Assembly (NCBI GenBank): GCA_013002105.1
Contig: JABDKS010000851.1
Span: 1 to 19,978 of the forward strand
Source of the DNA: Pirellulaceae bacterium
GTDB lineage: Bacteria; Planctomycetota; Planctomycetia; Pirellulales; Pirellulaceae
Direction of reading: 5' to 3'
DNA length: 19,978 nucleotides
Shown in pieces: positions 351-18,659 of this stretch. The notes below the pieces were generated by a model. The model saw only the letters and a program-made list of their open reading frames with translations, made no database searches and was not told the DNA's origin. The position numbers and the translations under genes were made by a program. Numbering within the stretch: position 1 is the first letter of the stretch; every line of letters starts with the position of its first letter.

Positions 351-406
351 TGACCTCGGTGAATCCAGTGATTGCAAAGAAAGTTGAATCCCTCCCCAAC
401 GTCGAC
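351..406 (+). repeat. Direct repeat, copy 2
   Basis: This is the second copy of the repeat at 11-65. The shared blocks are TGACCTCGG (351-359), GAATCCAGTGA (361-371) and CTCCCCAACGTCGAC (392-406). It lies in non-coding DNA upstream of the small membrane protein gene. Confidence 0.6.
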
Positions 407-572
407 GTAAATTCAGTCAACGAATGCAAAATACTATCAGCGCCGGCACGTATCAAATTCGATGCAATCCACAATGCAATTGCCCCTGCATCGCACTCGC
501 GCTACAATGCCAAGTCCAGCGACGAATTGTCGCTTTTCTCTACGTTGTCGGTTGCTGACTTTGTCGTGGCGC

Positions 573-977
573 ATGCGTTCTACGTTCAACCCATATCAAC
601 CGCCCTCACGTCGATCGCCACCCGATTTAGCTTCCGTTGCTCCGCGCTGGTTCTTTCGATTCATGATCGCATCTGCGGTCATAATGTCCTTCATCACAGT
701 GGTTCTCATCGGCTGGAGCGCCGAGACGGAACCGTTTTTCGGTCCTTTCGACCGGTCTGATGCATTGGTCAGTTTGGCGGGAGGCGGAATGGGAGTTTTG
801 TTCTGGCTTATGTGGGCAGGTGGAATTCTTTACTCCGTATTTCGCCAGTGGGCGCCAAAGTGGATGGTGGTTCTTTTATTGCTCGCACTAATCGGGGCGA
901 CGGTTAGTGGAACCGTAGCCGTCGACTACCTCGGCGATCGACACGATTGGAAAACGAACTTGCAATCCACACCCTAG
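573..977 (+). CDS. Small membrane protein with NPYQPP N-terminus
   Basis: A 134-residue protein of unknown function. The ATG at 573 is chosen because it places the motif NPYQPP at residues 6-11; small membrane proteins of planctomycetes often begin with this proline-rich sequence, whereas the reading frame further upstream looks non-coding. Three hydrophobic segments can be seen: roughly residues 27-48, 62-84 and 91-112. The segments suggest an inner-membrane protein with a short cytoplasmic proline-rich start. No catalytic motif is visible. The gene ends about 150 bases before the next one, and a TACAAT box lies in that gap, so the two genes probably have separate promoters. Confidence 0.65.
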   Translation: MRSTFNPYQPPSRRSPPDLASVAPRWFFRFMIASAVIMSFITVVLIGWSAETEPFFGPFDRSDALVSLAGGGMGVLFWLMWAGGILYSVFRQWAPKWMVVLLLLALIGATVSGTVAVDYLGDRHDWKTNLQSTP

Positions 978-1054
978 GGCCGCGATCGGCAAAGAGTTTT
1001 TACGAAGGGCCGCGAAGCGGACGATATCAAGTCCGTAGCGACCGGCGGCGTTGC

Positions 1055-1060
1055 TACAAT
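1055..1060 (+). promoter_or_regulatory. TACAAT, possible -10 box
   Basis: TACAAT differs from the sigma-70 -10 consensus by one base and lies 70 bases before the ATG at 1130. No clear -35 box is seen. The same hexamer precedes three other small genes here (2799, 3387, 3905). Confidence 0.3.
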
Positions 1061-1129
1061 GGATTGTCGTTCAATCTGTCGCTTTGTCTTGGAGCGGCGT
1101 ATCAACATGCAATAGTCAGAAATAGATCA

Positions 1130-1576
1130 ATGCCGTGGGAAATCACCATTATCGATGGCCCGTCGCCCAACGACTCGATTCTCGGCCCACGTGACAACGT
1201 CATCTCCCGACTTAGCGCGGCGTTGCCGGGTGCAACCCTTGAGCAGCCACCAGCGATCCCGAACGAGTTTCTTGCGCAGATGCCGGAGTCTGTTCGTGAT
1301 GTCATGAACCGCCCCCGATTGGAGGGCAGTTTTGAACATCCCGACTTCTCCATCTCGCTCTACTGCTCTGCCGATCCAGCGATCCGCTGCATAAACGGCG
1401 AGGTGCGTGGTAACGGCGATCCGCTTGCGGCGTTGAAACACCTTTGTGATGACACCGGCTGGTCGGTTTACGACTGTAGCGAAGAGCGTGTCGTCGATTT
1501 CTCCGATCTTGACTCGAACGGCTGGGATGCGTTTTGCCAGTGGCGTAGTCGTGTACTCGCCGAAAGAGACAATTAA
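1130..1576 (+). CDS. Small acidic hypothetical protein, immunity-like
   Basis: A soluble protein of 148 residues with no signal peptide or membrane segment. The start at ATG 1130 (MPWEITIIDG) is preferred over an upstream in-frame ATG that would overlap the preceding gene, because the sequence between them looks non-coding. The C-terminal half has well-spaced tryptophans and acidic residues (W156-type pattern GWSVYD, then GWDAFCQWR), in the style of small immunity proteins of polymorphic toxin systems. I do not recognise a named family, so the immunity role is an inference from size, charge and neighbours (a barstar-like and a SUKH-like gene). A 47-codon ORF follows 11 bases downstream and may be co-transcribed. 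Confidence 0.6.
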   Translation: MPWEITIIDGPSPNDSILGPRDNVISRLSAALPGATLEQPPAIPNEFLAQMPESVRDVMNRPRLEGSFEHPDFSISLYCSADPAIRCINGEVRGNGDPLAALKHLCDDTGWSVYDCSEERVVDFSDLDSNGWDAFCQWRSRVLAERDN

Positions 1577-1587
1577 AGGGAGTGAAG

Positions 1588-1731
1588 ATGTTCGATAGAA
1601 TCGAATGGACTCAAGGCCGCTGCGCGATCGGCGACCATCATTCGACCGTCGACGCGTCAATTGATCAACTTCGCACCCATTTATATTTCACTTGTACCAT
1701 CGACGGTGGTATTCCAAAAACCACTCGTTGA
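1588..1731 (+). CDS. Short ORF (47 aa), possibly real or a remnant
   Basis: The ATG at 1588 has a good ribosome-binding site (AGGGAG, 5-6 bases upstream) and opens 47 codons before TGA. The product (MFDRIEWTQG... to ...GGIPKTTR) has no recognisable domain. It sits 11 bases after the preceding stop and 6 bases before the next ATG, so the three genes could form one transcript. Its length suggests either a small gene or the truncated start of a longer immunity-like protein. Confidence 0.35.
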   Translation: MFDRIEWTQGRCAIGDHHSTVDASIDQLRTHLYFTCTIDGGIPKTTR

Positions 1732-1737
1732 ACGGCA

Positions 1738-2216
1738 ATGACGATGCGAAAACGAATTGACCAACTCGCTGCTGCCGATTTAGACACCTATCCTGTCTGG
1801 GAAATTGCCTCTGACGAGGAGGGGGTCGAGGGCCGAGACGAACAGACGGTTCGGCCATGTAATTTCGATGGCCCGGTCGACCCCAAAGCCGGCATATTCT
1901 TCATTCGCTCAACTTTCACGCTTGATGACGGTTCGACCGCCGTAGGATACGTGACACCACCCTACAATGGAGACTCCGATCTGGGAGCAATCCAGCCAGT
2001 CATCGTCACCAGTCATGAACAAATCATGTTTTGGTGGGGCGTCCTGGAGCCCAGTCGCGATTGGATCAACGCGGCCTACCGCCAGTTCGACCGTCCTGTC
2101 TCACAAATATTCCCAATCCAGTTTTGTCCGATGTCGACGCAATCAGCGGGCCGGTTTCTGGCACGATCTTCGGTTTCATGCAAATGCGTGGTGAAGAAAT
2201 CGACACGATAAAGTGA
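1738..2216 (+). pseudogene. Small hypothetical protein, frameshifted near 2115
   Basis: The frame starting at ATG 1738 reads as a sensible acidic protein up to about SQIFP (codons near 2101-2115). It then turns into Cys/Ser/Lys-rich sequence that ends at 2211. From about 2105 another frame continues sensibly (NPVLSDVDAISGPVSG, then GFMQMRGEEIDTIK) and stops at 2214-2216. Joining the two gives a protein of about 158 residues. The shift is what a loss of one base would produce. It is either a real mutation or a sequencing error. The family is not recognised; features include a tryptophan-rich centre (MFWWGVLEP) and no signal peptide. By context it may be another immunity-type gene. Confidence 0.55.
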
Positions 2217-2376
2217 GTCAACCGCTGCGCAAGAGGACGTACCTGACACCAACACCGATGTTGCATAACGGCTGGTCGCCTCAGCAAGTCGCTGCCATTA
2301 GCTTGATCTATTAATCCAGCTGCCAACCCAATGTGGGCGCGTCGTCACGACTACTTTGTTTGAGACTGCCGGTCCG

Positions 2377-2673
2377 ATGAATATTCCCGTCATCAAAATC
2401 GAAACGGATGTGATTGCAAACTGGGACTCGTTCCATGACTTTTTTGTTCGCTCGTTCAACTTTCCCGACTACTACGGTCGCAATATGAACGCTTGGATCG
2501 ATTGCATTTCAGACCACACCGCTCCATTCGTGCTTCAACTCGACAACGCCGCGAGCTTCCGTGCCAGATGTCCCGAACAATACGCCGCCATCGTTGAATG
2601 TTCTTCGTTCGTCAACTGGCGCAATGTCGAATCGGGGTTTGAACCACTCATATATCTCGCGTTCTCTGATTGA
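2377..2673 (+). CDS. Barstar-like protein (RNase inhibitor family)
   Basis: A protein of 98 residues. The stretch FNFPDYYGRNMNAWIDCISD (about residues 28-47) matches the barstar signature, in which an aromatic-rich FPxYYGxNxxAxxDCL-type helix blocks the active site of barnase-type ribonucleases. The preceding strand (IPVIKIETDVI) and the length near 90-100 residues also fit. The protein would be a cytoplasmic immunity protein against a secreted or delivered RNase. ATG 2377 is chosen over a TTG seven codons upstream because the fold begins there. No barnase-like toxin gene is visible in the window, so it is an orphan or its partner lies upstream. Confidence 0.8.
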   Translation: MNIPVIKIETDVIANWDSFHDFFVRSFNFPDYYGRNMNAWIDCISDHTAPFVLQLDNAASFRARCPEQYAAIVECSSFVNWRNVESGFEPLIYLAFSD

Positions 2674-2798
2674 TGATCTGGCCTGGTTACACATTGGACA
2701 TGAAGTAGATGTTGATGACTCACGTCGCTCGGTAGCATGAATTTTCCTCGAAGACTTCGAACAAGTTTTTGCACTGTGGCGACGTCCGTTGGCATTGT

Positions 2799-2804
2799 TA
2801 CAAT
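2799..2804 (+). promoter_or_regulatory. TACAAT, possible -10 box
   Basis: The hexamer lies within GTTACAAT, 34 bases before the GTG at 2838. It is the second of four such boxes upstream of small genes in this region. No clear -35 is visible. Confidence 0.3.
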
Positions 2805-2837
2805 TTTTCCGTTGTTCACACTTGATCATTTCTTGCT

Positions 2838-3239
2838 GTGGCACGATCAGAAAACCATTTCATTGGATGTAGCCAGGTGCCCGAACAGCGCAAACTTGAT
2901 CGCGAGGCTTTCCTCGAGTTGCTCGCTGACCAGTTTCCCGAAGTGGTAGCGACCATTGACGAAATTTCTACCGGGCTATTGCATCTGGAGGTTGCCGCGT
3001 TTCGGCGATGCGTCGAAAACGCCGCGGATTCATCGCGTCTATGGGATGTGCAGCGCTATCTGAAGTTCGTCGATGATATCGTGCCTCGCGCGGACGATGA
3101 GCTGGGAAATGCGATTGGCGTCTCGTTCATTGAAGACTTCGCACTTGAATGCAACGATGCCCGCAGAAACGCAATTCGAGAGCGGGCTCCCAAACGAATC
3201 CGCGAAATGATTGTCGTAGTGAATTCGCAGTGGCGGTGA
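2838..3239 (+). CDS. Small helical hypothetical protein (DUF7674-like)
   Basis: A soluble protein of 133 residues, strongly helical and acidic. Its centre (FPEVV, then TGLLHLEVAAFRRC, then a run around LWDVQRYLKFVDDI and NAIGVSFIEDFALEC) resembles a family of small bacterial proteins that I associate with DUF7674, found near contact-dependent toxin and immunity loci; the family number is from memory and uncertain. The start is the GTG at 2838, as no ATG is available in frame. The stop is TGA at 3237-3239. The same frame then stays open for 36 more codons with a Gly-rich tail (TGIGN-type repeats) to TAA at about 3348-3350, so read-through or a recent stop mutation is possible. Confidence 0.6.
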   Translation: MARSENHFIGCSQVPEQRKLDREAFLELLADQFPEVVATIDEISTGLLHLEVAAFRRCVENAADSSRLWDVQRYLKFVDDIVPRADDELGNAIGVSFIEDFALECNDARRNAIRERAPKRIREMIVVVNSQWR

Positions 3240-3296
3240 TCCTCGGAGAAGTTTGCTGCCAGGATCTTGGGCGGTGCCATTGGGTTGGTCAATATC

Positions 3297-3341
3297 ACTG
3301 GCATCGGCAATACTGGCATCGGCAGCACTGGCATCGGCGGC
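3297..3341 (+). repeat. Three 15-bp tandem repeats
   Basis: The unit ACTGGCATCGGCAAT is present three times with changes only in the last three bases (3297-3311, 3312-3326, 3327-3341). In the frame of the preceding gene it encodes a pentapeptide repeat, TGIGN/TGIGS/TGIGG, ending in ID and a stop. Confidence 0.75.
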
Positions 3342-3386
3342 ATCGATTAATTGGTTGATGTCTTTTTCCTCGTTTAAGGCGGCGTT

Positions 3387-3392
3387 TACAAT
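3387..3392 (+). promoter_or_regulatory. TACAAT, possible -10 box
   Basis: TACAAT lies within GTTTACAAT, 37 bases before the GTG start at 3429. No convincing -35 is visible. Confidence 0.3.
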
Positions 3393-3428
3393 CGCCCCGT
3401 GTCACACGACCCCCGTGAAGGAAGCTCC

Positions 3429-3782
3429 GTGACTGACGTCTCCCTCCGATTGCTAGTCATCAAGACTCACGATGTCCCCAAGGTGGTCGCGTTCTACCAA
3501 CTGCTCGGTCTGAACTTTGCGGCCGAGCAGCACGGTAAGGGCCCGCTGCATTACTCGGCACCGCTTGGTAACGGGATTTTCGAAATCTATCCTCTGTCCA
3601 GCGAGCAAAGGTCTGACTGTACGACGCGATTGGGATTCGCTGTTGCCGATCCGGACGCGACCGTTGCGTCCACCGATGATTACGGTGGTCGCGTCATCAA
3701 GCCGGGCCGTGACACACCGTGGGGGTACATGGCATTGGTATCGGATCCGGACGGACGCACTGTCGAGATCTACCGCGCGTGA
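3429..3782 (+). CDS. VOC (glyoxalase/bleomycin-resistance fold) protein
   Basis: A protein of about 117 residues with the vicinal-oxygen-chelate layout: an N-terminal strand and helix (VIKTHDVPKVVAFYQLLGL), a central GNGIFEIYPL strand with a candidate metal-ligand Glu, and a C-terminal MALVSDPDGRTVEIY strand with a second Glu. That last block is the family hallmark. Such proteins bind a metal and act as glyoxalases, dioxygenases or resistance proteins; the substrate cannot be read from the sequence. The GTG at 3429 is preferred over the GTG at 3399, because GAAGGAAG sits 4-5 bases before it and the fold starts just after. It lies between immunity-like genes but has its own putative -10 box. 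Confidence 0.85.
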   Translation: MTDVSLRLLVIKTHDVPKVVAFYQLLGLNFAAEQHGKGPLHYSAPLGNGIFEIYPLSSEQRSDCTTRLGFAVADPDATVASTDDYGGRVIKPGRDTPWGYMALVSDPDGRTVEIYRA

Positions 3783-3904
3783 GTGGCTGATGTTACGGCC
3801 TCTGCGATTGAGAGTTTGTCTGATCCTTGACCGTGCGGACCAAATGGCATGGCGGGAACTGGGTTTAGACCGCCTTGTTTGTTTGGCCACGCGTGACCCA
3901 CTGT

Positions 3905-3910
3905 TACAAT
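3905..3910 (+). promoter_or_regulatory. TACAAT, possible -10 box
   Basis: TACAAT lies within GTTACAATAA, 78 bases before the ATG at 3988. It is the fourth copy of this box in the region. The -35 is weak at best (TTTGGC, 17 bases upstream). Confidence 0.35.
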
Positions 3911-3987
3911 AATTCGGCGTGCCACGACTACTCGCTTCGTTTTGGAGCGGCGTCGGCGCTTCCTTTCTTTGTCGATCACCTGTCATC

Positions 3988-4521
3988 ATGGATGCCAACA
4001 CTCTCGCTGCCTCGTTTCCTGCTACCATCGCGTTACCGCCCGAGATCCGTGCGTTGTGCGATTGGACCGCGGCCAATGGCTACCCGATCAGTGGTTACTT
4101 CGAGTTGCGGGAGCACGACGACGAGACATTGCGTTGTTGGTTTGGCTCAGAAGCGGCGATCGGTGACCTTGCCCAATTTGGTGCCGGCGCGGATGGTTCG
4201 CTGTACTGTATTTGGCGGTCGCCCGACGATTCCCAGTCGATCGTTCACCTCGGATCCGAAGGCGACGCGATCTTTGTTCTGGCGTCAAATCCGCTTGAAT
4301 TTTTGCGTCTACTGGCGATTGGCTACGACGAAATTGGGTTCGCTGATTTGAAGTCGCCGCCGACGCAAGAAGATCGCGAGGAGAACGTCAACGCAAACTT
4401 TCAACGTTGGGTTTCCGATACCTACAGCGTCTCCATCCCTGACACTGGCGCCGATATTGTTCAACCCGACTCTCAGAAACATGCTGATCTTCAGGCGTGG
4501 ATCGATGAACGTTGTGGCTAA
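3988..4521 (+). CDS. SUKH (SMI1/KNR4)-like protein, probable immunity protein
   Basis: A soluble acidic protein of 177 residues. The block DAIFVLASNPLEFLRLLAIG at about residues 91-110, followed by YDEIGF, is typical of the SUKH (SMI1/KNR4) superfamily, in which a conserved strand is followed by a helix beginning with a Phe-Leu pair. The upstream part (YCIWRS and IVHLGSEGD) gives the expected beta strands. SUKH proteins are widespread immunity proteins against nuclease and other toxins of polymorphic systems. ATG 3988 is preferred over a GTG at 3919, because the intervening residues do not look coding. No toxin gene is adjacent. I am fairly sure of the superfamily but cannot name the cognate toxin. 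Confidence 0.6.
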   Translation: MDANTLAASFPATIALPPEIRALCDWTAANGYPISGYFELREHDDETLRCWFGSEAAIGDLAQFGAGADGSLYCIWRSPDDSQSIVHLGSEGDAIFVLASNPLEFLRLLAIGYDEIGFADLKSPPTQEDREENVNANFQRWVSDTYSVSIPDTGADIVQPDSQKHADLQAWIDERCG

Positions 4522-4859
4522 CGGCCGGCGACTTGGTGCGCGTGCCGCATCGCTGTGATCCGGTGTGTGTGCAGCATCGCTGCGAGATGTGAGAGCGGTT
4601 GGGAGTACGCGATGCAACTGTGAGTCCCCCGCAGTCGATGGCGGGTGACCGTTTGGTTCGGCGGTTCGTGCGCCCCCGAGTGATGGCCATTACGTCCAAG
4701 CTTTTCGTATCCACTTTGGTTAATTCGCTACGTCAGTGCGCGATCGACGTTTTTCTTCTGGTAGTGCACCACGGACCGGGTACCATTGCATCCGCACGCA
4801 GTTACTCCGTGCGTCCAAACTTTTGACATCCGACTGATCCCTTCGGCGATCCGAGATTC
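4522..4859. other. Spacer without a recognised gene
   Basis: I see no supported gene here. The reading frames are short and their products do not look coding. GC-rich direct elements occur near its start (CGTGCCGCATCGCTGTGA and GTGCAGCATCGCTGCGA share GCAGCATCGCTG-like cores about 27 bases apart). No clear promoter or terminator is visible. Confidence 0.5.
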
Positions 4860-5225
4860 ATGACGAAGTTGTTTGAAACCCAATCGTATGTCAGTACCGA
4901 AGCTGCCTGGCACCAGGAACTTACTTTTGACGAGCCGTACGATGTAACGGTGTTGATCGAGAACCTCGGTGCCGATCCGATTTACGGCTTTTATCTCAAC
5001 GAGGCAGATTTCGAGCAAATGATTGCAAACGAAAGTGTTGATGATGCAATCATGTCTCGATTGGTGGAACAAGTCCTTTGCGAGAATGAGTGTGGTGTTT
5101 GCGAGATCAATGTGCGTTTTCACGAAGGGAAGCATTTCGTTTGCATTGAATTGGACCGAGAGTCCAAACCGGATGCAGATCGGACCGAGTTCCGATTGGG
5201 GCTCTACGAGAAGTCCGCCGGCTAG
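4860..5225 (+). CDS. Small acidic hypothetical protein
   Basis: A soluble protein of 121 residues, family not recognised. It is acidic, with no signal peptide or membrane segment. The pattern suggests an alpha/beta fold: a strand DVTVLIENLG at about residues 28-37, YGFYLNE at 42-48, a long helix with many acidic residues at 50-75, then strands CEINVRFH and HFVCIELDRE. There are three cysteines in ENECGVCEIN and nearby, but no clear metal site. It is followed 27 bases later by another small gene in the same direction, so the two may be co-transcribed. Size, charge and context fit an immunity protein, but this is an inference. Confidence 0.65.
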   Translation: MTKLFETQSYVSTEAAWHQELTFDEPYDVTVLIENLGADPIYGFYLNEADFEQMIANESVDDAIMSRLVEQVLCENECGVCEINVRFHEGKHFVCIELDRESKPDADRTEFRLGLYEKSAG

Positions 5226-5252
5226 CGCCGGGTTCGAGCTCGTTTAAGGTCT

Positions 5253-5498
5253 ATGCAGGTTGTTTCCGATCGGGTGAACGCCGACGGATTTGTCGGCATC
5301 AAAATATCGCTTGTTGCGTCCAAGGATTTGACGTTGGCGGATCTGGCTCCTGGCTCAACACCCGATACGTCTTTTTGGTGCGACTCGCATCAATCGGTCA
5401 TCCGGCGGTTTTGCAAAGAGATATTTCAGACGGCACGCCGGTGCGATGTCCAATTCGTTCTTGGTGAGAGTCGATTCGCCATCACGCTCAAATGGTAG
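5253..5498 (+). CDS. Small hypothetical protein (81 aa)
   Basis: An 81-residue soluble protein that I do not recognise. The ATG at 5253 has AAGG about 5 bases upstream and lies 27 bases after the stop of the preceding small gene. The sequence alternates strands (GFVGIKISLVA, VQFVLGES, FAITLKW) with one helix rich in Arg, Cys and Phe (VIRRFCKEIFQTARRC). It ends 36 bases before the convergent end of the permease gene. A role paired with its upstream neighbour is possible but unproven. Confidence 0.55.
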   Translation: MQVVSDRVNADGFVGIKISLVASKDLTLADLAPGSTPDTSFWCDSHQSVIRRFCKEIFQTARRCDVQFVLGESRFAITLKW

Positions 5499-11191: not shown

Positions 11192-11203
11192 GTGAGGCAT
11201 GTC

Positions 11204-13096
11204 ATGTTGCTGAGAACTCAAGTCGGTAAGACACCTTGTTGGCAACGAATCGATGATGTGAGACTGTCACGCGGTGGCGTTGGTTTCTGCCTGGTGTTGA
11301 TTTTCTTTTGTTTTGTTGCGGTACGCATGCCCGCGTCCGCAGGCGAGCCGAGTAAGGCGATGATCGCGCAGGGCGAAGAGATCTTTGAGCGAGAGTGGAA
11401 TTACAGCGAGGCGGATCAGCTTAGCAAGAATGATTTGCGATCCGATGCGCGAAGTCGAACGATCCGGCCTGGGGATGGGTTGGGACCGATGTTCAATGCT
11501 AAGTCGTGTGCGGCGTGTCACGAATCTGGCGGCGCCGCTGGCATCAAGCAGAACGTGACTTTGTTGACATTAGATCCAAGATCGCCTGCGATCGAATTGG
11601 CTCGAACGTCGACAGTTGCGTTCGGTTTTGGCAAGAGTACCGCGACAACAAAATCGAGCGAGCAAAAGTTGCAGGTCCAGAAGCGAATCAAGCGTCTGTT
11701 TCCCGCGCTTATCGACTCATCAGGACAACTGAACTTAGAAGTGGTCGTTCACGAAGCGTCCACTCGTGATGTTTACGATGTCATTCGCGAAGACTTGGCG
11801 GAGCACGTACCCGGCGGGATTGACGCGACATGGTTCCAGAGTTCACAGCGGACTTCCGACGCCATTGCAGATCGCCCCGTTGTCGCAGGGCGAATGGATG
11901 ATTTAGATTTTTATCTGAGCCAGCGAAATTCGCCGCCCCTATTTGGCCTCGGATTGATTGATCGGATTAACATCAAAAAACTGGAGTCGATCGCCCGAAA
12001 CCAGAATCGCAAGAGCAAGGGTGTTGTCACTGGCAGAGTCGGCATTGGCAAATTTGGTTGGCGAGCACAAACAGCAAGTTTGTCGCAATTTGTTCGAGGA
12101 GCGTGCGCTGGAGAATTGGGTTTGCAAATTCCTGGCATGCCTCAACCGGATGACGTCGCAGACGACACTTATCTGAGTGTGGGTTTGGATTTAAATGAAC
12201 AACAAGTCGTTCAGCTTACCACTTACGTGCGAACGTTGCCTGCTCCAATACAGGTGCGTCGCAACGCCGATGTGATTGCGGTCGCGCGAGATGGCAAGAA
12301 ACTTTTTACAAAGGTTGGTTGTGCCACGTGCCATGTCGAAAATGTTTCACCAGCGTTTGGCATTTACAGCGACCTGTTGCTGCACGACATGGGAGACCTG
12401 TTGCAAGCGTCGTCGCCGGCACCGATGGCGAGGTTTTCGTCGCTGCAAAAGTCGGTTGCCATGCCGAAGTTCGATGGAAACAAACAGATGTTACAACTTC
12501 GGTTGCAGGCGGGAATGCAGATGGAGATGGCCGGGATGGATGTAGTCATGGATATGAGTGATCCATTTTCACCGCAATCGATGACGATGGGGAGGCAGCC
12601 TTTCAGTGGGTACAATGGCGGGCCCGATCCTTCCTTTACCCCGGTTCCCTATGCGTTACGACGTCCGGTCGAACCGCAATTTCCCTACGGTCCGGTTCCT
12701 GCAAACGTGCTGACGACACGTGATCCCGCGCAGATCACCTGGGATATGTTGCAACGCGAATGGCGGACGACGCCACTCTGGGGTGTCGCCGATTCTGCAC
12801 CCTATTTGCATGATGGTCGCGCGAAAACTTTGGATGCGGCAATCCGCTGGCATGATGGAGAAGCGAAAGCGTCGGCGACGGCATACCGTTCGTTGGCAAA
12901 GGATGAAAGAAAACTGATTCTTTCCTTTTTGAAGACTTTGCGAGCACCCGTGGACCATGTGAGCGTGGATGCCAGTATCGAAGATTGGTTGGAGGATGCG
13001 GCGCCAGTTCAAGAGTCGTCAGCCGAAGAAGAGGCGACACAGGAGAATCCAGAGGATACGGTTGATCAAAGCGAGTTGAGTGATCTATTGGGTTGA
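11204..13096 (+). CDS. Secreted di-haem oxidoreductase (DUF1111, cytochrome c peroxidase-like)
   Basis: A protein of about 630 residues. An N-terminal hydrophobic segment (FCLVLIFFCFVAV ending ASAGE) is a signal peptide, so the protein is exported. There are two c-type haem sites: CAACH at 102-106 and CATCH at 373-377. The C-terminal block YLHDGRAKTLDAAIRWHDGE is the DUF1111 hallmark and resembles the second haem domain of di-haem peroxidases. Related proteins are annotated as putative thiol oxidoreductases. An odd Met-rich stretch lies at about residues 435-464, between the haem site and the C-terminal domain. The tail (about 600-630) is acidic. ATG 11204 is chosen; a GTG four codons upstream is the alternative. 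It converges on the DUF3179 selenoprotein gene, with 22 bases between them. Confidence 0.9.
   Translation: MLLRTQVGKTPCWQRIDDVRLSRGGVGFCLVLIFFCFVAVRMPASAGEPSKAMIAQGEEIFEREWNYSEADQLSKNDLRSDARSRTIRPGDGLGPMFNAKSCAACHESGGAAGIKQNVTLLTLDPRSPAIELARTSTVAFGFGKSTATTKSSEQKLQVQKRIKRLFPALIDSSGQLNLEVVVHEASTRDVYDVIREDLAEHVPGGIDATWFQSSQRTSDAIADRPVVAGRMDDLDFYLSQRNSPPLFGLGLIDRINIKKLESIARNQNRKSKGVVTGRVGIGKFGWRAQTASLSQFVRGACAGELGLQIPGMPQPDDVADDTYLSVGLDLNEQQVVQLTTYVRTLPAPIQVRRNADVIAVARDGKKLFTKVGCATCHVENVSPAFGIYSDLLLHDMGDLLQASSPAPMARFSSLQKSVAMPKFDGNKQMLQLRLQAGMQMEMAGMDVVMDMSDPFSPQSMTMGRQPFSGYNGGPDPSFTPVPYALRRPVEPQFPYGPVPANVLTTRDPAQITWDMLQREWRTTPLWGVADSAPYLHDGRAKTLDAAIRWHDGEAKASATAYRSLAKDERKLILSFLKTLRAPVDHVSVDASIEDWLEDAAPVQESSAEEEATQENPEDTVDQSELSDLLG
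12507..12597 (+). other. Met-rich coding stretch within DUF1111 gene
   Basis: This part encodes a segment with about ten Met in thirty residues (MQMEMAGMD, VVMDMSD, then SMTMG). Met-rich segments in periplasmic redox proteins often bind Cu(I). It lies between the second CxxCH and the DUF1111 C-terminal block. Confidence 0.6.
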
Positions 13097-13118: not shown

Positions 13119-14087
13119 TCAGAATTCAATGTCCTTGGAGTCAGGATGAAAATTTTGCCACGCACGGCGAAAGGACATGATGCCAACCTTGGGGGTCAGC
13201 CGTTTTCCTTTCATCGGTCCGGTGATCGCACGCCCAGTGGACGCGTTCCAGGTACTACCGCTGTTTGTGTCTTTCATTCGATTGTCACCTGTGGCAACAA
13301 ACTGGAGTGACTGGCCGTCGACGATCGTGTCGAACAGGCGTGTCGCGGTGGCTTCGTGATCAAACGTTGCCAGGTAAGATGCGTTCTTGATTTTGAATGC
13401 ATGAAGTGGATGTTTGATCATGTCTTCCATCGGCAACGCCCGCGCCGATCCGCCCGCTTCGAATCCAAAGACAAACTTGGATGGGTCGGCATAAAAGTCG
13501 CGAGAGTAGCTTTTTGACGACGGCGGCATGTTGAGCACCGTCGTAGCGGGAAACTCCTTGCGCCAGGCTCCCCATGTCATCATGTCGGTGATGATTGGCT
13601 CCAGTTCTTTTCCCTTGAGCGGCCCGGACATTGCACGACCGAGCAAATGCGACCACTGCGTACCGGTTTCGACATCACTCATGACCAGCGAGCGCATCCA
13701 GAGCTTTCCCGAGACGCGAAGAGTGAGTATCTGATCATCGACCTGACGGACGTACACGACGCCGTTGTGACAAAGATGTCACCAAGTGGCCGCGATCGGG
13801 GTCGCGGCCAATTCATCGTTGATAATTTCACGCATTGGCCCGGTGAGTTGATTCAGTGGATACGCACGTGCCTTGCCATCCAGTTGGACACCCAAGACCA
13901 AATCGTTGTCATCCAGTTGAACCTTGTCCGCAGCGACGATCGGAGGATCCGTGATCGCGCGAATTGGAAATGGCAACACCGTTCGCGGTTGATACTCTAA
14001 TTGTCCCCAGCAGTGCGATGTATGGATCCACGAACTTGCACCGAGCCAGAGGATCACAAGCGTGGCGGAACGGGCGATATAATTCAC
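13119..14087 (-). CDS. DUF3179 selenoprotein (in-frame UGA read as selenocysteine)
   Basis: One frame runs across a single TGA (13779-13781). Upstream it encodes LDGKARAYPLNQL...NDELAATPIAATW; downstream it continues HLCHNGVVYVRQ...VSGKLWMRS. In DUF3179 proteins this place reads roughly TYCPLCGTGMVF, so the UGA falls exactly on the first Cys, giving Sec103-His-Leu-Cys106. Homology on both sides in the same frame, and a tRNA-Sec 158 bases from this start, make selenocysteine the best reading. The GTG at 14087 gives a compact signal peptide (NYIARSATLVILWLGASSW); a TTG at 14159 is the alternative and would add 24 residues. The protein (about 322 residues) is probably exported, with a thiol/selenol redox role in the envelope; the substrate is unknown. 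The C-terminal half (about 195-322) repeats the fold without the CxxC. A normal gene caller reports two fragments, 13779-14159 and 13119-13757. Confidence 0.9.
13746..13765 (-). promoter_or_regulatory. Candidate bacterial SECIS hairpin
   Basis: Starting 14 bases after the UGA, ACGG-CGT pairs with ACG-T-CCGT: seven pairs, one bulged U on the 3' side, and the five-base loop CGUGU. Position and a G/U-containing apical loop fit a bacterial SECIS, which SelB reads just downstream of UGA. The sequence also encodes protein, so pairing alone is weak proof. Confidence 0.45.
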
Positions 14088-14204
14088 GATGCAACGAACG
14101 CGGTACGTGGAACGATGCCGGATTGCCACCTTGACCAGCGGGCTGGTCGCGTTTGTCAAACCAGGTTTTACGCTGTCAATTCTATCGGATTGCCGCGACG
14201 ATGG

Positions 14205-14244: not shown

Positions 14245-14338
14245 GGAAGCGTTTGCTGGTCTGGTGACCGCCTCGGTCTTCAAAACCGATGAAGCGTCCG
14301 AAACGATGCTTGGTGGGTTCGATTCCCATCCGCTTCCG
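14245..14338 (+). tRNA. selC: tRNA-Sec (anticodon UCA)
   Basis: The acceptor strands GGAAGCG (14245-14251) and CGCTTCC (14331-14337) pair fully and are followed by discriminator G; CCA is not encoded. The anticodon stem TCGGT/ACCGA encloses the loop CTTCAAA, so the anticodon is UCA. The variable arm is very long, with a 7-bp stem (AAGCGTC/GATGCTT, one G-T pair). The T loop TTCGATT is closed by six pairs, so acceptor plus T stem total 13 bp, as expected for tRNA-Sec. The D arm has the GGTC/GACC stem. The GGAAG start is the same as in E. coli selC. It decodes UGA with selenocysteine via SelA and SelB, which are not in this window. It diverges from the DUF3179 selenoprotein gene. Confidence 0.93.
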
Positions 14339-14450
14339 CTTGTTGGCCAATGGTTCGATCGCGTAGTTTTTGCCGGGGTTTGGTTTGCGCCGCCAGTGGA
14401 GGCCACTTCGTGAGACTGCCCCTCGAGGCCGCTGTCCCAGTGATTCATCG

Positions 14451-18187: not shown

Positions 18188-18659
18188 GACTTCGCTTTGG
18201 ATGTTGCTGAGCCGTTATGATTTGAACTCACGCTATTTGCATCCCACTTTTGCTCTGACCGAGTCTGACGGTGCTTACACCCCTTCGCATGCTTGTGCTC
18301 GGTGTCGTTATGTTTAACGCCGGTGTAGCCATGGCGGACGAACGTCCCAACATCGTTGTGATTCTAATCGTATTGCTGCTCCCCCGACGAAGGATATCGC
18401 CCTGTATCGAGGTGGGCCGCCGACCGCGGCGATCGGATATGTTTCCGACTTGGCGTTGTGCCAGTCGCCACAATCGCACCAATGGTGAATTCTTTGCGCG
18501 GATGATGGCAACTTCGTTACACTAATCAAGGATGATGCACCCGTCGCGTGCATCCTGACAGATCCCAAAGCAAGTTCTAGTCGCGAATTGATTCCCACGG
18601 GCCCGTGGGAAACCCAATGGTTGCAGGCGGATTTCGAACGAGTGTTTCAGGCTTTCTAA
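18188..18659 (+). pseudogene. Degraded region with sulfatase-like start and orphan C-terminal frame
   Basis: No intact gene is present. A frame at ATG 18271 begins with a signal-peptide-like segment (MLVLGVVMFNAGVAMA) followed by DERPNIVVIL, the usual start of planctomycete sulfatases, but it loses sense after about 35 codons. A second frame, coherent from about 18362, ends at TAA 18657-18659, directly adjoining the next ATG. It contains one TGA (18486-18488) followed by ILCADDGNFVTLIKDDAP and ends with FERVFQAF. The family of this part is not recognised. It could be the remnants of one or two genes after deletions. Confidence 0.45.

Follow-up and report, generated by a model that had tools for sequence, protein, structure and literature searches.

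A predicted DUF3179 selenoprotein with a U-H-L-C motif in a Pirellulaceae bacterium

The DUF3179 gene and its in-frame UGA

The window, i.e. the whole stretch of 19,978 nucleotides of Pirellulaceae DNA that was analysed, carries a gene of the DUF3179 family with an in-frame UGA and, on the opposite strand, a tRNA-Sec gene (Table 1). The minus-strand frame from 14159 to 13119 contains a single internal TGA, at 13781-13779, and ends with a further TGA at 13121-13119. The original prediction had described one reverse-strand frame interrupted by TGA alone, and this was borne out: the PF11376 match of the read-through product spans the UGA, covering residues 68-341 with 192.2 bits (cut-off 27) and an E-value of 1.8e-56. 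Sub-pieces of the product also match the family, residues 60-228 (read through) with an E-value of 7.1e-45 and residues 220-346 with 1e-11. Around residue 127, the read-through translation is ATPIAATW-U-HLCHNGVVYVR.

Table 1. Features of the DUF3179 locus, with positions in the window.
Feature	Position	Strand	Remarks
DUF3179 (PF11376) gene, predicted selenoprotein	13119..14159	minus	346 residues from TTG 14159
In-frame UGA, residue 127, putative selenocysteine codon	13779..13781	minus	
U-H-L-C motif (Sec127 to Cys130), site of the family CxxC	13770..13781	minus	
Possible signal peptide, residues 25-52, hydrophobic stretch	14004..14087	minus	hydropathy only; homologue N-termini by eye
First predicted Rieske-type beta domain, residues 86-209, with UxxC	13533..13904	minus	
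Second predicted Rieske-type beta domain, residues 229-337	13149..13475	minus	
SECIS-like hairpin	13746..13765	minus	stem ACGGCGU / ACG(U)CCGU, one bulged U
tRNA-Sec gene, anticodon TCA	14245..14339	plus	ARAGORN; Rfam RF01852, 72.9 bits (cut-off 47)

Compared with 11 relatives, codon substitutions are most frequent at position 3 and least frequent at position 2 on both sides of the TGA, with a single tie between positions 1 and 2, found in L016 downstream of the TGA. As the pattern is the same on both sides, the parts upstream and downstream of the TGA both look protein-coding. The true start codon is uncertain, TTG 14159 being merely the earliest possible one and GTG 14129, 14087 and 14057 the alternatives. 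The 15-residue stretch of peak hydrophobicity begins at residue 23, and the N-termini of full-length homologues, read by eye, resemble signal peptides. Together these observations make export plausible, and the product is probably exported.

Motif codon, hairpin and selenocysteine machinery in relatives

A first scan of genome contigs yielded eight loci (L001-L008). The codon aligned to the UGA is TGA in L001, L002 and L008, which are 58-60% identical to the window protein, and a Cys codon in L003, L004, L005 and L007 (41-48% identity); L006 stops short of the motif, and another fragment of the same genome, G006:C380, has TGA. Among 150 genomes from the family of G001, 66 have a match at E 1e-3. 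A codon-level check showed TGA in place of the aligned Cys codon in close homologues of 12 of the 150, and one further genome of the family, G058, has it in a divergent subfamily. From 294 genomes drawn from the phylum of G001, 24 match at E 1e-30, 23 of the best matches having one internal TGA, and in the fetched homologues the aligned codon is TGA in 22/22 (G001 was covered separately); as this draw was picked by similarity to a Sec-type query, it gives no estimate of the frequency of Sec in DUF3179.

After removal of repeats (L001, L003, L005 and L008 equal L009, L015, L014 and L010) and of L006 and L025, in which the motif is not reached, 41 UGA genes including the window were counted, 19 from the family-level set and 22 from the phylum draw, together with 22 Cys homologues that have TGC or TGT at the aligned codon. 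The motif is UxxC in 40 of the UGA genes and UxxA in one, and the full CxxC is present in 21/22 Cys genes. The alignment and the search of related planctomycetes that had been proposed as checks thus agree with the original prediction: U takes the place of the first Cys in CxxC, relatives have either TGA or TGC/TGT at this codon, and, as to the possible objection that homologues have no Cys there, 22 do. An internal TGA does not always imply Sec at the motif, where the aligned codon is GAC, TAC, TAC and GGC in G018, G147, G134 and G064, and TGC in G039; in G002:C212, TGC stands at the motif and a TAG lies elsewhere.

Two variants of the motif were seen among the UGA genes. In L086 (G216:C682:938-2404) it reads U-P-L-A, with Ala replacing the second Cys, so that Sec may work there without a resolving Cys. 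L039 (G006:C60:26900-28700) and L045 (G058:C4:2200-3700) belong to a divergent DUF3179-like subfamily (25-29% identity), with TGA at the aligned Cys (F-U-A/V-V-C-N) and the hairpin loop GGUCU.

Downstream of the UGA, the window can form a SECIS-like hairpin with a 5-nt loop, CGUGU (13758-13754), 7 bp and one bulge, and a spacing of 20 nt from the UGA to the loop; without the bulge, five pairs are left, one of them G-U. The bacterial SECIS model, in the part of PMC13188914 that describes it, has a loop of 3-9 nt with G in the first two loop positions, a spacing of 16-37 nt, a stem of 4-16 bp and an energy <= -7.5 kcal/mol. In loop, G placement, spacing and stem, the window hairpin lies within this description. 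Set against the bSECIS consensus, CGUGU is the commonest loop, in 27 of 39 UGA genes, followed by GGUCU in 5, CGUGC in 3 and GGUCC in 2; two genes have other loops.

Resampling of synonymous codons was used to tell constraint on the RNA from constraint on the protein, in 39 of the 41 UGA genes (L039 and L045, of the divergent subfamily, were left out). All five inner pairs are present in 36/39 UGA genes, compared with a null mean of 9.3 and a maximum of 18 in 1000 resamplings, and in 0/22 Cys genes (null 0.3); as the sequences are kin and not independent, the null figures are not exact probabilities. In the family-level subset the five inner pairs are found in 16/17 UGA genes (null mean 4.77) and in 0/9 close Cys genes. 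When the partner strand was slid by 1-3 bases, pairing fell from 5.95/7 to 1.6-2.9, lower in all six registers. Hairpin columns 21 and 29 covary, with G-C in 21 and A-T in 18 of the 39 UGA genes and zero mismatch, a Val/Ile codon change being accompanied by a silent change in the next Tyr or His codon. From these loci, the phylum gains a collection of SECIS-like hairpins that covary.

Folding of single sequences proved uninformative as SECIS evidence, and UGA and Cys genes were separated only by the position-specific, codon-controlled comparison. The window's 59-nt fold shows no advantage over shuffled sequences (z -0.46), and the mean 39-nt fold energy is -8.4 for 19 UGA genes vs -10.2 for 22 Cys genes, i.e. 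no better for UGA. In this 39-nt stretch, which was of our own choosing, the window gives -8.0 and the 16 other family-level UGA genes -5.3 to -11.8 kcal/mol, several UGA genes folding more weakly than -7.5 kcal/mol; the minimum-energy structure differs from the hairpin in 5/17 family-level genes (L010, L002, L013, L019 and L048). The 22 Cys genes, too, have 24-nt stretches that fold below their own codon null (2/200 resamples as low).

To relate the codon to the decoding machinery, 22 genomes of relatives were searched, 13 with a UGA gene and 9 in whose listed matches a close Cys form occurs and the UGA form does not. SelA scored over the cut-off in 13/13 UGA genomes vs 3/9 Cys-only genomes and SelB in 12/13 vs 3/9; the missing one is G022, where two partial SelB pieces lie on separate contigs, both below the cut-off. 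A tRNA-Sec over the cut-off was found in 11/13 vs 3/9, with 120 candidates scored per genome and none passing in G051 and G126; the cut-off is lenient, as the control passed in 5/14 named genomes, and weak passes mean little, while all 14 genomes that passed have a top match of 68-78 bits.

The tRNA-Sec gene of the window does adjoin the DUF3179 gene, as had been claimed, but it lies on the opposite strand, and adjacency was not found in relatives. The two genes are divergent, with 85 bases between the tRNA and the earliest possible DUF3179 start, and being on opposite strands they are not co-transcribed. In 11/11 UGA genomes with a tRNA-Sec over the cut-off, tRNA-Sec and DUF3179 are on different contigs; DUF3179 lies well inside its contig in most of them, e.g. 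G001 and G030, which excludes adjacency there, and near a contig end in G002 and G006, which leaves room for it. No tRNA gene of any kind was found in L001-L008. In the window the adjacency is thus a fact, but it looks incidental.

A quickly built tree of 62 genes (SH-aLRT support only, midpoint root, 18/59 inner branches below 80), in which L039 and L045 were kept and L046 was left out as too short, shows clustering of the U/C label, with 7 changes vs a shuffled mean of 18.2; only 2 of the 7 are required by well-supported branches. The window falls in an all-UGA clade of 7 genes (support 99). L021 (UGA) and L022 (Cys) are sisters, also with support 99, and the genome of L022, G095, has no SelA over the cut-off. 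The tree is compatible with an old Sec form and a degree of Sec/Cys exchange; rooted at the midpoint and built from a biased sample, it fixes neither the number nor the direction of the changes.

Reading of the UGA and predicted fold of the product

The fact that the TGA is conserved, that the hairpin covaries and that Sec machinery goes with the UGA form in the relatives tested supports the earlier proposal of selenocysteine in a Sec-x-x-Cys motif. Judged by these comparisons, Sec is almost certainly inserted at the residue 127 UGA, and the window gene is very probably a selenoprotein gene of the DUF3179 family. The TGA could instead be a sequencing error or a recent nonsense change of TGC/TGT in a dead gene, and gene callers do stop at this codon, the window's own database entry, P0002, being a 212-aa C-terminal piece. 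The TGA is, however, kept in relatives at 58-60% identity and in all 22 homologues fetched across the phylum, substitutions are codon-like on both sides and the hairpin covaries, which makes a pseudogene or misread base hardly credible. The database calls could also be taken at face value as two products, an upstream piece of 126 aa and a downstream piece of 212 aa that restarts at GTG 13757. Among the 120 matches listed (of 228), 88, P0002 included, begin at residues 135-160, past the UGA, and 32 cover the motif. The Cys homologues, however, are continuous, and as the UGA lies in the middle of a beta domain in the model, neither piece would contain the whole first domain; two separate products are therefore extremely unlikely.

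The codon might also be decoded by near-cognate tRNAs as Trp or Cys, or have been reassigned in the whole lineage; some read-through of UGA occurs generally, but nothing specific to this gene speaks for either. Against such decoding, the gene uses TGA as its own terminator, the internal TGA stands in place of Cys at a single fixed position, the UGA form is accompanied by SelA (13/13 vs 3/9), the hairpin is complete in none of the 22 Cys genes and a tRNA-Sec adjoins the gene. We consider non-Sec decoding very unlikely. In the preferred reading, a bacterial SECIS hairpin whose loop begins 20 nt downstream would direct the insertion of selenocysteine at the UGA at 13781-13779, so that the CxxC-type motif has Sec in its first position and reads U-H-L-C. 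SelB, SelA and SelD would act here as in the relatives, and the tRNA-Sec next door would presumably be the one used. From the anatomy of the family, the product would be exported and fold as two tandem Rieske-type beta domains without iron-sulfur ligands, in which the Sec-Cys pair may serve as an extracytoplasmic redox centre of the reversible selenenylsulfide/dithiol type.

In the model, the UGA is located mid-domain in the first beta domain, with one strand at residues 120-127 and the next at 132-137. The Rieske ligand motif, C-x-H ... C-x2-H, is present in 0/59 sequences of set A1, of which only 33 show WCxxC and the remainder are mostly C-terminal pieces, and in 0/30 of set A2. A Pfam search of the DUF3179 product up to E 10 gave no Rieske family, NCBIfam no family at E 0.01, and a sequence search of the PDB two matches at chance level (E 0.25 and 0.76). 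DUF3179 has a predicted fold of the Rieske type, to which Rieske ferredoxins and NirD belong, but neither the cluster ligands nor a Pfam Rieske match, and with the ligands missing it was not filed as a Rieske [2Fe-2S] protein. An exact placement of UxxC on the Rieske 'box I' loop was dropped, as two registers fit the strand order and only ranges could be aligned.

Analogy within the family suggests that the U-C pair has a redox role, which we consider likely. The motif might alternatively bind a metal or haem, with no selenol/thiol cycling. The CxxCH of close DUF3179 homologues resembles a c-type haem site, and His follows the second Cys in 26/33 WCxxC homologues of set A1. Many of the wider members, however, have no His, with UPLCQ in 7, UPLCR in 4 and UPLCF in 3 of the 41 UGA genes and CPLCD in 11/22 Cys genes, and covalent attachment of haem normally needs two Cys. 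A DUF3179 protein also appears in a table of an Idiomarina paper on extracellular electron transfer (PMC9230427, table entry), which would fit such a role; on balance, metal or haem binding appears unlikely.

What is new here, as a prediction only, is the view that DUF3179 consists of two Rieske-type domains in tandem that lack the Rieske ligands. If this fold and the redox role are both correct, a selenol would carry out redox chemistry on a scaffold whose known use elsewhere is electron transfer by iron-sulfur clusters. More tentatively, Sec-Cys or Cys-Cys may have replaced iron-sulfur redox chemistry in a tandem, cluster-less Rieske-type family whose Sec form is old and widespread in the Planctomycetota, Sec and Cys having replaced each other more than once; this combined view is possible rather than probable. 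Should the predicted fold hold, it would offer a structural interpretation of DUF3179, together with the hypothesis of a selenol/thiol pair on a scaffold that usually carries iron-sulfur clusters.

Published context and the rest of the window

The original prediction allowed that Sec-containing DUF3179 members might have been noted elsewhere, and they have. The selenoprotein list of PMC9312934 contains 'DUF3179 domain-containing protein, pfam11376, UxxC/T', in the listed entry traced to Zhang and Gladyshev 2007 and the Olavius algarvensis delta-symbiont, and PMC13188914 has the same entry from the same 2007 source. NCBI uses the name 'DUF3179 domain-containing (seleno)protein [Planctomycetota bacterium]' for one database row, P0057, although this row is a Cys form, and PMC4807772 reports selenoproteins in two planctomycetes. 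DUF3179 is therefore already known as a selenoprotein family, to which the window adds a good new planctomycete example. It shares the Pfam family, the UxxC motif and Cys homologues at the aligned place with the listed selenoproteins, and differs in being a planctomycete member, whereas the paper cited in the review entries deals with a deltaproteobacterium. The passages concerned in PMC9312934 and PMC13188914 do not contain the hairpin covariation, the phylum-wide spread or the predicted fold, and neither these passages nor the table entry in PMC9230427 treat structure or function. 'Overlooked', as the gene had been called, applies to gene calling, with 88 of the 120 listed matches starting past the UGA, and does not apply to the family, which is on published lists. 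Many proteins of the clade are shortened in public databases because the UGA was taken as a stop. The parts worth following are the phylum-wide spread and the predicted tandem Rieske-type fold.

An operon or conserved neighbourhood with tRNA-Sec or with a di-haem oxidoreductase was considered and rejected, since the tRNA is on the other strand and the neighbours do not recur. The di-haem oxidoreductase gene (DHOR, E 2e-27; 11192-13096, plus strand) is convergent and ends 22 bases from the DUF3179 stop, and no homologue of it was found in 16 DUF3179 and 13 tRNA-Sec loci of relatives. Against the same loci, nine window proteins other than DUF3179 gave a single weak match, an ABC-ATPase with 29% identity. 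In an all-against-all comparison of ORFs (first 25 groups), beyond DUF3179 and overlapping frames, only pairs from the close relatives G008/G084 and G100/G038 were found.

At the left end of the window, a repeat in two pieces of ~30 nt occurs in copies 340 nt apart (6-65 and 346-406). At 359-5498 (plus strand) lies a row of small ORFs resembling an integron-cassette or immunity-gene array, among them Barstar (2356-2673), DUF7674 (2838-3239) and a glyoxalase-like protein (3399-3782), the others being without a curated Pfam match. The ORF at 18271-18525 (plus strand) ends early and has no Pfam match at E 0.1; its beginning, with DERPNIVVIL after a signal peptide, resembles that of a sulfatase, and the ORF is possibly a sulfatase remnant. 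The host looks to be a planctomycete of the Pirellulaceae type, since the homoserine dehydrogenase of the window shares 86-87% identity with its best named matches, proteins of Pirellulaceae, Stieleria and Rubripirellula.
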